A stretch of 29,418 nt of DNA from a virus. Within the stretch, counting starts at the first letter, position 1. Each line of letters opens with the position of its first letter. A model generated the notes under the pieces. It was not told the DNA's origin. It worked only from the letters and a program-made list of their open reading frames with translations, and did no database searches. Made by a program: the position numbers and the translations under genes. Location of the stretch: IMG/VR virus record IMGVR_UViG_3300020442_001666, positions 1-29,418 of that record; one strand, written 5' to 3'. Positions 25,339 through 29,418 of the stretch are shown in pieces.

Positions 25339-25800
25339 CTAGTAATGAACCTGTAGTAGAACTTCTCCCACGCCAAAAGGTTCAAGAACTCCTTCATCAG
25401 TATCTATACTGATAATTAAAATATCATGGGTATACTGAGTATTACCTTGCTTATCAGTATACGCTAGTCTTCCGTTTTGTTCGACTACTGTTTCTACGTC
25501 TTCGAGCAGCTTGTCTAATGCAACTACTGCGTCTTCCTCTTTAACGTAACATCTGACGGTAATACTTAAGTATCTATCTTTGTATGCACCGCCTTGGTAA
25601 TCCCGAGTCTCGGCTCCTGCATTTAGATGCAATGCTGGAAAAACCTCTACTTCGTCCCAAAACTTTAATCTTGGGTAAACTTCTTCATATAAATCAGTTA
25701 AAAAGTTACCCGTTAAGTTTATTTCTTTTAGCTTTTCAACTAAAGCATCAACAATGGCAGATCTTCGAGTAGTATACTGTCTATGATTTACTTCTGCCAT
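25339..25800 (-). CDS. Tail terminator protein (153 aa)
   Basis: The ATG overlaps the preceding stop by one base (TAATG). The product is a compact alpha/beta protein: a helix, RRSAIVDALVEKLKEINLTG, then FWDEVEVFPALHLNAGAE, YKDRYLSITVRCYVKEEDA, a helix LDKLLEDVETVVEQNG, and a final strand GVLEPFGVGEVLLQVHY. This size and strand order fit tail terminator proteins such as lambda gpU and T5 p142, which cap the tube and connect it to the head. Its position immediately before the tube gene is the usual one. The family call rests on fold pattern and context rather than a signature motif. Confidence 0.8.
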   Translation of the reverse strand: MAEVNHRQYTTRRSAIVDALVEKLKEINLTGNFLTDLYEEVYPRLKFWDEVEVFPALHLNAGAETRDYQGGAYKDRYLSITVRCYVKEEDAVVALDKLLEDVETVVEQNGRLAYTDKQGNTQYTHDILIISIDTDEGVLEPFGVGEVLLQVHY

Positions 25801-27155
25801 TACTGTCTCCTAGTATAGAAGCGTCCCATTGCATATTGAGCTGCTATTTCTCGTATAGATCTGTCAATAAGTCTTCTTGGGTCTCTGTCTGTATCTCTTT
25901 CAAACTTATCGTAAGGAGATCGTTGATATGTGTACCCAATGCTTGGGAATCCTTGTGCAGTTACATTTATATCTGTAATTCTGACAGATCCCGCAAATCT
26001 ACCTGTTCTGTTTTCAAGTCTGGGTGCCCCCATATTCTCTCTAACAGTTTCATTTATTTGATTGTTCAAAGGGCCGATAAGCTTTTGAAGAGATAGCCTA
26101 TCTCCTTGGCTTGAAGTTTTTCGTCTACCACTTAGCTTTACTGCTTTTTCTTTAACTACAGGAGCTAGTGTTGCTTTTATCTTTTTAGTTTTACTTTTGC
26201 CTTTTCCGGCTCTAGTATTTATTTTTTGCTTTTTAAGAGTAGACTTTTTATTTCCTGCCCCTGCGAGAATATTTGTTACTGTTTTTTCAAGTACTTCTAT
26301 AGGAGCGTCTGAGCCTTTTGCGTTTGGAAATCCAAGTGCTTGGTCTTCTATAATTTTATCAAGAGCCTGTTGCAAGAATCCTGCATCTTCTGCGTCTTGA
26401 AAGGCTTTTGATCTGTTTCCTTTAACAGTTTCAATTCCTGCATTAAATATTGTTTTTCCGTCTTTTTGAGTTGGCCCTTTGGTAACTCTTACAAAAACTC
26501 CATCAAAAACTTCGCGAACATATTTATTTACTGCAGGATTCATTTTATCGCTTGTAAACTTTAAAAGAATTTCTTCCGCTCGCTGTGATCTAAATGCTGC
26601 GTTTGTAGTTTCTTGATCGTGACCAATATCTAAAAAAGGGCCACTAACTCTACGTTGTTTAGTACCGTCTTTGTTAATCTTACCTGTTTCTTTTGCAAGT
26701 CTTTTTTCACCCAGACCTCTTTCTAAAATTATATCGTCTAGTGCTAAAATTAATGGTCTTTGAGCTACTTGTTTTACTCTTCTGAAATAATTGTAAACTT
26801 TTGCTCTTCCTGTCTTACTTTCTATAATAATCGTAAATGATTTAGCAGAGCCTAGTATTTTTACATCGTAAGTTCTACTTCTTTCCATTGCGTGAGTAAA
26901 AGACTTTCTAAACTTTTGTACCATTTTTGGTACTTCTCTTTTAACTACTTTTTCAAACTCTTCTGGTAGTTTTTTAGTGGAGCTAAGTCCTAAAATGTTT
27001 CTTACTTCGTTTCTGACAGTTTTTCTAAGCTCAATTTCATTTATTGTGAATGCGTGTATTTCTTTTGCTGTAACCAACTCTCTAAAAATATCAGACGAAG
27101 CATATAACTTATTTAAAAGTATATCTGCTAACTGGTCTAAGTCTTTTTGAGCCAT
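25800..27155 (-). CDS. Probable neck/tail-completion protein, expanded (451 aa)
   Basis: The ATG shares one base with the adaptor's stop. The position between the gp6-like adaptor and the tail terminator is where HK97 gp10-like/minor-tail-Z-like proteins occur, which are usually about 120-200 residues. The C-terminal ~100 residues fit that family: LENRTGRFAGSVRITDI, then SIGYTYQRSPYDKFERD and a terminal helix. Before it lie an N-terminal helical domain of about 120 residues, a middle section with SGPFLDIGHDQETTNAAFR that I do not recognise, and a very basic linker near 305-345 (STLKKQKINTRAGKGKSKTK). The basic linker may contact DNA or the portal. No separate head-closure gene is seen, so this protein may combine two neck functions. 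Confidence 0.65.
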   Translation of the reverse strand: MAQKDLDQLADILLNKLYASSDIFRELVTAKEIHAFTINEIELRKTVRNEVRNILGLSSTKKLPEEFEKVVKREVPKMVQKFRKSFTHAMERSRTYDVKILGSAKSFTIIIESKTGRAKVYNYFRRVKQVAQRPLILALDDIILERGLGEKRLAKETGKINKDGTKQRRVSGPFLDIGHDQETTNAAFRSQRAEEILLKFTSDKMNPAVNKYVREVFDGVFVRVTKGPTQKDGKTIFNAGIETVKGNRSKAFQDAEDAGFLQQALDKIIEDQALGFPNAKGSDAPIEVLEKTVTNILAGAGNKKSTLKKQKINTRAGKGKSKTKKIKATLAPVVKEKAVKLSGRRKTSSQGDRLSLQKLIGPLNNQINETVRENMGAPRLENRTGRFAGSVRITDINVTAQGFPSIGYTYQRSPYDKFERDTDRDPRRLIDRSIREIAAQYAMGRFYTRRQ

Positions 27156-27727
27156 TAAAAGTTTTTATACAAATCTAGAACTCTTTTAATGTGTGCAGGG
27201 AACCCTACAGCTTCAACAACAGGAACATTTTCAAGTGTAGCTCCTGCAAGAGTTCGTCGACCCTTATACTCATCCTTGTAGTAAAAGTTAATTAAATCAA
27301 TAATTGCAAGTTGCAAATCTGCAGGAGTTTCTGCATATCCTGCTGTGTAAGTTACTCTTACAGAACCAGCCCCCTTAGGCCAGTTTTTATAGGTGGATCC
27401 CGTAACGTACAGTACACTATCCGTCGTTTTCTCAAGATAATAGTCTGTAGTTGGCACGGTGGTGTAACTTTCCGTTACGGAATCTCTTTTTTCTACTGAA
27501 ACAATATTATTTACAGGACTTTCTGTAAGCTGCACCACATGAGTAGGCCAATCAATACTAAAGTCTTCTACTTTATTTGTAGAGTAATAATCAATAATAC
27601 TATTTCCACAATAAGTTTTTACTAATTGATTCACTGAGGCTATAATTCGGTCAAGCTTGAAATCATCACGAACATTCGTAATGTTTTCAGCATCCTTGAA
27701 CTGTTGTAAAGTAATAAAATTAGCCAT
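27155..27727 (-). CDS. Head-tail adaptor, HK97 gp6-like (190 aa)
   Basis: The protein starts MANFITLQQFKDAENITN and has an early helix (FKLDRIIASVNQLVKTYCGN). A beta section follows (VVQLTESPVNNIVSVEKRD, then YYLEKTTDSVLYVTG, GSVRVTYTAGYAETPADLQ), and it ends with a helix (AIIDLINFYYKDEYKGRR). This is the arrangement of gp6-like connector proteins that sit below the portal. It is the first gene after the terminator at 27741-27770, yet no convincing promoter or strong ribosome binding site is seen in front of it, so it may depend on readthrough. The family is confident and the ring position in the neck is inferred. Confidence 0.85.
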   Translation of the reverse strand: MANFITLQQFKDAENITNVRDDFKLDRIIASVNQLVKTYCGNSIIDYYSTNKVEDFSIDWPTHVVQLTESPVNNIVSVEKRDSVTESYTTVPTTDYYLEKTTDSVLYVTGSTYKNWPKGAGSVRVTYTAGYAETPADLQLAIIDLINFYYKDEYKGRRTLAGATLENVPVVEAVGFPAHIKRVLDLYKNF

Positions 27728-27786: not shown

Positions 27787-29175
27787 TTAAGCTACGCAGA
27801 GGAGCTTAACTACTGACTTGTCAGCAGATGTATCTGCTGCGAGCTGAGTAAAGCCAAGGTTTTGAGTAGCAACGATTACTCGACGCTGATTCATTACCTC
27901 GTAGTCCTGCTCTACGTTTACACCACGGAGGCGTGGAATAACGAAGTTACGGACGTTAACAGCATAACCTACAGTTGCGTTGTCTGCTTCAGCTTCGAGC
28001 TGATCAGATACGATTACTGGAGTACCGAAGATAGCACCTACAGTACCAGTGATCTTTGTCGCAATGTCTGAACCTACATCAGTGATATCAGCAAACGCCG
28101 CATCAGCAATCAGGTCATAGTAACGCTTCTGAGAGATTACGTATACGAGATCAGAAGGATTCATACCGTACTTACCCATCAACTTACGAGCTGAAAGGAA
28201 GTTCTCAGCAAGCACTGAAGTACCTGTGAGGTTAGCAGCTGATACTGCTGTATCGAATGTAGTTGTACCAAGTGCCTCGAGGCCGTTGAAGCCTTGAGAA
28301 CCACCTGCAGTACCGTTGATGATTGCATCGTCAACAGCGCGTGCGTGAGCGCGTGCTACTGATTCTACAAGCATAGGCATCAGGTTGATGAGCATCTGCT
28401 CGTCAGTCTGGTTATCCATGAAAGTAGTTGAAATCAACTTGGTTGCTTTCATGATAACATTTGAAGGCTGGTAACCGTTTGAACCTGTTGGGTTCTCAAG
28501 AACACCGTTAACTTCTGCATTTGAACCCCAAGTTGCCTTGTTGGTGTCAGTCTGCAGTGGCATCAATGTAGTCTCAGAGTTAACTGTTACTTCACGGAAT
28601 GCTTGAGCAAGACGCAGTTCCTGCATGATCTCTTTTTCGATCTGCGTAGATACGTCTGTTGCGAGGCTGAGGTTCTCAGAAGTTGCTGTGAAACCGCCGC
28701 CTGCTTTCTCGAATAGATCACGTGAGTAGTCTGTGTCCCATCCCTTACCAGTCATTACACCGAGGAAGTGACCATACATGAACTCTTTGCCCCACTTAGA
28801 CATAACGTCACCAGTTGAACGGTCAGCGAATACACGCTTAGACTCACGCATTGCAGTGATTTCTGCATTCTTCTCTTCGAGGTCTGCCTTGTACTGAGCG
28901 ATTACCTCTTCAATCTTAGCATCTTTCTCGTTGAGCTTAGCTTCAACGTCAGCTAAAAGGCGCTCAGCGCCTGACTCGATACCAGTCTTAATAACAGACT
29001 CAACTTCTGCTTGCTTAGCAAGCTCAGCGTCTGCTGCTTCTTGAGCTGCCTTAGCTTCTGCTTCAGCGGCTGCTTTTTCTTCGGCCTGACGAATTGCGAT
29101 CTTAGCAGCAGTCTCATCCGCTACCTTCTTAGCAAAAGCCTCCAGGTCGATTTCGGGAGTTTGTACTTCCGACAT
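27787..29175 (-). CDS. Major capsid protein, HK97 fold, with N-terminal delta/scaffold region (462 aa)
   Basis: The ATG at 29175 (MSEVQTPEIDLEAF) is preceded by AAGGAGA 5-6 nt upstream, a strong site. Residues about 8-115 are almost entirely charged and helical (EKAAAEAEAKAAQEAADAEL and similar), the delta domain that scaffolds HK97-type proheads and is removed by the protease. A likely cleavage zone lies around MRESKRVFADRS, before about 120. The rest has the phage-capsid pattern: TSENLSLATDVSTQIEKEI, then LMPLQTDTNKATWGSN, SVARAHARAVDDAIINGTAG, SARKLMGKYGMNPSDLVYV, and VIVATQNLGFTQLAAD at the end. Codon use is notably richer in GC and in CGT/CGC, as expected for the most abundant virion protein. 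The gene is in frame with, and open into, the protease upstream. Confidence 0.95.
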   Translation of the reverse strand: MSEVQTPEIDLEAFAKKVADETAAKIAIRQAEEKAAAEAEAKAAQEAADAELAKQAEVESVIKTGIESGAERLLADVEAKLNEKDAKIEEVIAQYKADLEEKNAEITAMRESKRVFADRSTGDVMSKWGKEFMYGHFLGVMTGKGWDTDYSRDLFEKAGGGFTATSENLSLATDVSTQIEKEIMQELRLAQAFREVTVNSETTLMPLQTDTNKATWGSNAEVNGVLENPTGSNGYQPSNVIMKATKLISTTFMDNQTDEQMLINLMPMLVESVARAHARAVDDAIINGTAGGSQGFNGLEALGTTTFDTAVSAANLTGTSVLAENFLSARKLMGKYGMNPSDLVYVISQKRYYDLIADAAFADITDVGSDIATKITGTVGAIFGTPVIVSDQLEAEADNATVGYAVNVRNFVIPRLRGVNVEQDYEVMNQRRVIVATQNLGFTQLAADTSADKSVVKLLCVA

Positions 29176-29418
29176 GTTCGTCTCCTTTTGAACTGACTTT
29201 TCAGTTCCATCCGGTGTATCACTAGCTTCAAATGAATCTTCATCTTTAGCCAGAGACTGACCGGCTAGATCTACACTATTTTTGAAAGTTTTTTTGAATT
29301 CTTCGTACTCATCCATTGAGTCAAAAGATTTCGCCAGAGAGAAAGTTGCTGCTTGATTGCAAGGTACCGATACAACTGATACTTCAAACAACTCAGCATC
29401 CTTAATCTTTAATCCGTC
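27787..29418 (-). CDS. Prohead protease C-terminus in frame with the major capsid protein (5' end outside window)
   Basis: Reading the minus strand from the right edge, the frame is open as DGLKIKDAELFEVSVVSVPC and continues NQAATFSLAKSFDSMDEYEE. The segment AELxEVSVVxxPxN is the conserved end of the catalytic fold of HK97-type prohead proteases (peptidase family U35). No stop occurs before the MCP start. The linker, about 45 residues rich in Asp, Glu and Ser, passes through KSVQKETN straight into the MCP Met. Translation from the upstream protease start would therefore give a protease-capsid fusion, while the internal ribosome binding site gives MCP alone. The catalytic Cys/His/Ser region is upstream of the window. 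A lost stop by sequencing error cannot be excluded. Confidence 0.8.
   Translation of the reverse strand, partial: DGLKIKDAELFEVSVVSVPCNQAATFSLAKSFDSMDEYEEFKKTFKNSVDLAGQSLAKDEDSFEASDTPDGTEKSVQKETNMSEVQTPEIDLEAFAKKVADETAAKIAIRQAEEKAAAEAEAKAAQEAADAELAKQAEVESVIKTGIESGAERLLADVEAKLNEKDAKIEEVIAQYKADLEEKNAEITAMRESKRVFADRSTGDVMSKWGKEFMYGHFLGVMTGKGWDTDYSRDLFEKAGGGFTATSENLSLATDVSTQIEKEIMQELRLAQAFREVTVNSETTLMPLQTDTNKATWGSNAEVNGVLENPTGSNGYQPSNVIMKATKLISTTFMDNQTDEQMLINLMPMLVESVARAHARAVDDAIINGTAGGSQGFNGLEALGTTTFDTAVSAANLTGTSVLAENFLSARKLMGKYGMNPSDLVYVISQKRYYDLIADAAFADITDVGSDIATKITGTVGAIFGTPVIVSDQLEAEADNATVGYAVNVRNFVIPRLRGVNVEQDYEVMNQRRVIVATQNLGFTQLAADTSADKSVVKLLCVA
29181..29187 (-). promoter_or_regulatory. 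Internal ribosome binding site for the major capsid protein
   Basis: AAGGAGA lies 5 nt before the ATG at 29175, inside the coding frame of the protease-capsid fusion. It is the strongest Shine-Dalgarno sequence in the window and decides the separate MCP start. Confidence 0.88.

Follow-up and report, generated by a model that had tools for sequence, protein, structure and literature searches.

In a 29,418-bp virus record (IMG/VR record IMGVR_UViG_3300020442_001666, analysed over its whole length and hereafter the window), the C-terminus of a prohead protease reads without a stop into an HK97-fold major capsid protein (MCP). The ORF lies on the minus strand and runs stop-free from 29418 to 27787, with its 5′ end open at the contig end. 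It very probably represents a nested gene with two products: a protease-MCP fusion and, from an internal start in the same frame, the MCP alone. The arrangement touches an old question, how the correct quantity of protease gets into a closed phage procapsid. If this reading is true, the protease is itself a capsid subunit and its dose may equal the ratio between two starts sharing a frame. Hundreds of contigs from an uncultured group share this fixed nested design, and a pseudoknot-like element embedded in the protease coding region might give a head gene a further level of translational control.

The protease part of the window (29176..29418, minus strand) is the C-terminal part of an S78 prohead protease, comprising the core end ELFEVSVVSVPCNQ and a tail/linker of about 60 aa, and is cut by the contig end. 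The frame opens with DGLKIKDAELFEVSVVSVPCNQ, residues from the end of this protease, and the Peptidase_S78 profile is matched at positions 130-162 of 165 only (E 0.007) because the contig stops there. The nested MCP reading frame (27787..29175, minus strand, 462 aa plus stop) matches Phage_capsid (E 6e-8), with PF05065 above its cut-off, and T5-type structures. Two claims of the preliminary description, that no stop separates the protease C-terminus from the MCP and that AAGGAGA precedes an ATG at 29175, hold true, with 6 nt between GGAG and ATG. Most of the protease is missing from the window, and the complete protease is visible in relatives only. In L002, which is 95% identical to the window, the whole ORF of 668 aa starts with MEKIFNLTSTFK and contains a complete S78 protease (S78 E 4e-14; PF04586 53.6 bits, cut-off 21; TIGR01543 68 bits, cut-off 59). 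The His, Ser and Glu motifs (NH, FSVGF and ELFE) are conserved, residues H62, S108 and E131/E134 being invariant in 29 diverse members, and we infer that the family protease cleaves. Downstream of the MCP lies a head-tail adaptor gene (27155..27727, minus strand; phrog_442, E 9e-28), followed by tail terminator, major tail protein, tail chaperone, tape measure and lambda-like tail-tip genes. A 451-aa ORF without a PHROG match (25800-27155) sits between the head-tail adaptor and the tail terminator, and positions 1-2454 encode a tail-fibre-like protein of many near-identical 'TISGYGITDAFDGAFSSLTG' repeats.

The fused group consists of widespread, mostly marine, uncultured phages. A scan of viral contigs gave 80 relatives with 62-95% identity to the window; in all those whose contig extends sufficiently upstream, the frame goes on through an entire protease, and the protease starts of fused relatives are MEKIFNLTSTFK or near variants. 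The set was enlarged by two further scans with more distant members and by one genome scan, in which only seven MAG contigs match, so that no firm host can be named. Each locus was called fused or separate from protease and MCP queries run separately on it. The preliminary description expected relatives to show neither a stop nor a frameshift at the junction, and to carry, ahead of the junction and in its frame, a complete protease. Fusion is indeed seen in all 237 family loci that could be judged, rather than the separate protease and MCP genes of a T5-like head module, and none of the 237 has a stop or frameshift in the linker; the complete protease is present in relatives such as L002, the window itself being cut off. 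Some contigs were fetched twice under two locus ids, and the distinct complete fused ORFs number 158. Separate loci amount to 31: 30 are T5-like and one, L160, has a frameshift within the MCP part. Together with L342 and L381, L160 makes up the three interrupted cases, all with their break beyond the internal start, within the MCP part. The other two belong to a set of 80 loci, picked by a DNA motif in the protease and not by MCP similarity, all of which, given a long enough contig, read through the linker in frame; an in-frame GGAG-N6-ATG occurs in 62/66 of these motif-picked loci.

The internal start consists of a Shine-Dalgarno sequence, AAGGAGA (29181..29187, minus strand), conserved as nucleotides, with GGAG placed 6 nt before the ATG (29173..29175, minus strand) from which the nested MCP product would begin. 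This column holds M in 157 of the 158 distinct fused ORFs, and the spacing between GGAG and ATG is 6 nt in 155 of these 157 and 9 nt in two. The only ORF without the aligned ATG, that of the distant L270, has a GGAG before an ATG farther downstream, at MSVEVGLSGVEKLVADLQAK, which precedes a shorter delta domain. The Glu codon of the site is GAG throughout (155/155, and 49/49 among representatives, i.e., family members of <85% identity), against a background of 29% among Glu codons elsewhere in the same ORFs. The residue before this Glu varies (K/Q/T/E/M), but its codons (AAG/CAG/ACG/GAG/ATG) all end in G; Thr codons otherwise have third-base G in about 5% of cases. Codon 201 is among only seven of 200 conserved-residue columns with one codon in all representatives, the remaining six all lying within the protease RNA element treated in the next paragraph, and the third base of codon 200 is more uniform than that of any other among 426 columns with at least three residues. 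Mean anti-SD duplex energies in the representatives are -8.0 kcal/mol for the internal site vs. -5.6 kcal/mol for the protease start, the internal site being the stronger in 40 of 48; for other in-frame ATGs the value is -2.3 kcal/mol. An anti-SD pairing at least as strong as -8 kcal/mol occurs at 48% of internal starts but at 1.6% of the remaining in-frame ATGs. Judged by this nucleotide conservation, the internal MCP start is real and selected as a ribosome site.

A second constraint at the nucleotide level affects protease codons 103-124 of the fused ORF (L002:4941-5006), the synonymous sites of which are unusually fixed. The fixed pattern is consistent with an H-type pseudoknot: a putative stem A of 8 pairs would join codons 103-105 with 113-115, and a putative stem B of 12 pairs codons 108-111 with 121-124. 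Only the last 6 nt of the 3′ strand of stem B (GACGGA, 29413..29418, minus strand) fall within the window, the rest lying beyond the contig end. The proposed stems leave 98% of cells paired vs. 31-58% when the partner is slid. Changes on both sides of pairs are absent in the aligned sequences and the shuffle control for the stems is weak (24/500), because the protein code fixes most partners. All 20 pairs are formed in 38/50 representatives (mean 19.7), whereas 500 resampled synonymous-codon sets averaged 15.5 pairs and did not exceed 16.2. This coding-aware control is the stronger of the two; it would also respond to codon fixation of any other cause, and the structure was derived from the same sequences. 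Stem B is kept in 78/78 motif-selected loci, the selecting motif fixing only half of it. An Rfam search of four loci gave no match at E ≤ 1. Control of the fusion output by this element would be a guess.

The MCP part points to maturation of the T5 type. The best PDB matches of the L002 query are the T5-type capsid structures 5tjt/8zvi/8ho3, and alignment to T5 pb8, which is annotated as cleaved after K159, predicts a helical delta (scaffold) domain of 157 aa (28705..29175, minus strand), compared with 159 in T5. An invariant Lys, residue 157 of the MCP in the window, is shared by all 50 representatives, always followed by A or V (EK|A or EK|V), and lies at most one residue from the T5 K159 column. 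Delta is probably cleaved after this Lys (28707-28705, minus strand; EK|A in the window, one residue from that column), and a mature MCP with the HK97 fold is predicted at 27790..28704 (minus strand) from profile, PDB matches and alignment. The cleavage had previously been placed near ESKR/VFADRS, which is not where the T5 site maps: it falls on the Lys, about 40 residues farther downstream. A predicted structure of the entire fusion (A2, 29 sequences) has a mean pLDDT of 48, too poor for fold searches; this low-confidence model hints at delta helices.

We propose that one transcript would carry two in-frame ribosome sites. Translation from the upstream one would produce a protease-delta-MCP fusion of ~670 aa, and translation from the internal one an ordinary delta-MCP precursor. 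Because the frame is stop-free between the parts, essentially all of the protease would be joined to a capsid subunit. The fusion and the plain MCP would co-assemble via the delta and MCP domains of the fusion, thereby carrying the protease into the procapsid, a step that HK97 and T5 biology make somewhat more credible than its opposite. The protease would then cut after the conserved Lys at the end of delta, removing delta and its own tether. The dosage of the fusion would be set by start-site use. The preliminary description regarded the fusion as a minority product, and the internal site is indeed the stronger on average (40/48), but the two sites of L002, the closest relative of the window, are nearly equal (-8.7 vs. 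-8.3 kcal/mol); a minority fusion can therefore not be claimed for L002, in which the fusion might be no small minority. It is doubtful that the protease reaches the procapsid only as a minority chimera, with a two-site dose tuned by a pseudoknot specific to the fused lineage.

Other readings of the same frame are possible. The protease and MCP could be made as an obligate single fusion, in which case the protease would free itself by linker cleavage and the internal ATG would be a vestige of the ancestral MCP start. In line with this reading, the NF045541 fusions and those of RcKemmy, PPpW-3 and Murka each carry a single-protein annotation. However, a vestige would not hold an exact GGAG-N6-ATG and forced codons while adjacent residues vary, and one protease per capsid subunit would be far above the content generally assumed for HK97-type heads; a single fusion is highly improbable. 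The dual-product gene must also be weighed against recoding. Many members have an A7 run in the linker, at which some slippage might release the protease alone, and a conserved pseudoknot-like element lies upstream; in such a scheme the protease would end early by slippage at the run or at the pseudoknot, the MCP would come from the internal start and the fusion would be negligible. The A7 run is, however, absent from a good part of the representatives, no canonical -1 slippery heptamer precedes the pseudoknot at a suitable distance, and the in-frame linker is open and partly conserved in all members. A programmed -1 frameshift at either place was rejected, the A7 run not being conserved throughout and the canonical heptamer being absent, and recoding in general appears highly improbable. 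The window is a single metagenomic contig, in which a stop codon might have been lost by an assembly or sequencing artefact, but the relatives, hundreds of contigs of varied sample origin and some from MAGs, all have the same open junction, which refutes this reading and leaves it practically no probability.

The closest cultured homologues of both parts are the protease pb11 and the major head protein pb8 of T5-like phages (Demerecviridae). Gene order is the same and sizes are similar (210 + 458 aa in T5, ~203 + ~462 aa in the fused family), the lengths of the MCP alone and of its delta domain matching pb8. As in T5, in which delta is cut after a Lys, a Lys cut is predicted in the fused family. 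In T5-like phages, by contrast, the two proteins are encoded by separate adjacent genes with a stop and a gap of 7-17 nt, in the same or, often, in other frames, and the protease lacks the pseudoknot-like element of the fused lineage, which was not found in these relatives. The acidic stretch formerly described as a linker is one only in part: some of it is the ancestral C-terminal tail of the protease, found also in T5-like proteases. The simplest origin of the fused ORF would be a T5-like gene pair that lost the protease stop and kept the MCP ribosome site. In Aeromonas phage vB_AdhS_TS3 (L279:1500-2060, OP820700.1), a T5-like protease frame contains several in-frame TAG codons; the gene is annotated only as a fragment, and TAG looks to be read there as an amino acid, perhaps Gln.

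Protease-MCP fusion as such is already known, from NCBIfam NF045541 ('prohead protease/major capsid protein fusion protein') and from several cultured phages. RcKemmy, PPpW-3 and Murka are annotated with such fusions, and PHROG 4523 ('major head and protease protein') is fused like the present family. NF045541 likewise has both parts in one reading frame, but the family scores only 52-54 bits against it, over the protease/delta part only, below the cut-off of 525, and NF045541-like loci (L322, L325) combine a ClpP-like protease with a different MCP, unlike the family. ORF14 of B8b ('Peptidase U35', 685 aa) is tabulated, apparently with proteomic counts (PMC4294664); the listing fits a fused ORF and, as tabulated, gives no N-terminus. 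Fusions of the Jilinvirus type (Enterobacter phage Arya, Alux-21, ECO1230-10 and relatives) join protease and MCP likewise, in ~680 aa, but are unrelated in sequence to the family beyond the protease. Most members of these Arya-type fusions (L277, L278, L283-L311) have an in-frame ATG at the boundary (16/19 loci), mostly with an SD-like AGGA/GAGG/GGAG; the internal SD is weak to moderate, weaker and less uniform than that of the family, and some members have no ATG. Candidate nested starts were also seen, by inspection, in VP882, RcKemmy and ClpP-type fusions. On account of these candidates and the Arya-type boundary ATGs, the nested start may be a recurring design among fused lineages, perhaps of independent origin. 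Moraxella phage Mcat9 (L276, KR093633.1) shows another compact but unfused layout, in which the MCP gene shares 4 bases with that of a protease bearing the annotation 'coat protein'.

Full-text searches of the open-licence literature turned up no account of a protease-MCP fusion with a nested MCP start. As far as could be checked, the T5-like lineage of fusions and the conserved nested MCP start are new. The tripartite capsid gene of Gifsy-2 reportedly comprises protease, scaffold and MCP; like the family, it is one composite capsid gene, and its protease is said to be ClpP-like. In lambda, an in-frame internal start in the protease gene C gives the C-terminal part, Nu3, alone. The likeness drawn earlier to this nested in-frame product is apt, because one frame here holds protease and MCP with a selected internal MCP start. 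The nested product of lambda, however, is a scaffold, whereas that of the fused family would be the capsid protein with its delta domain.
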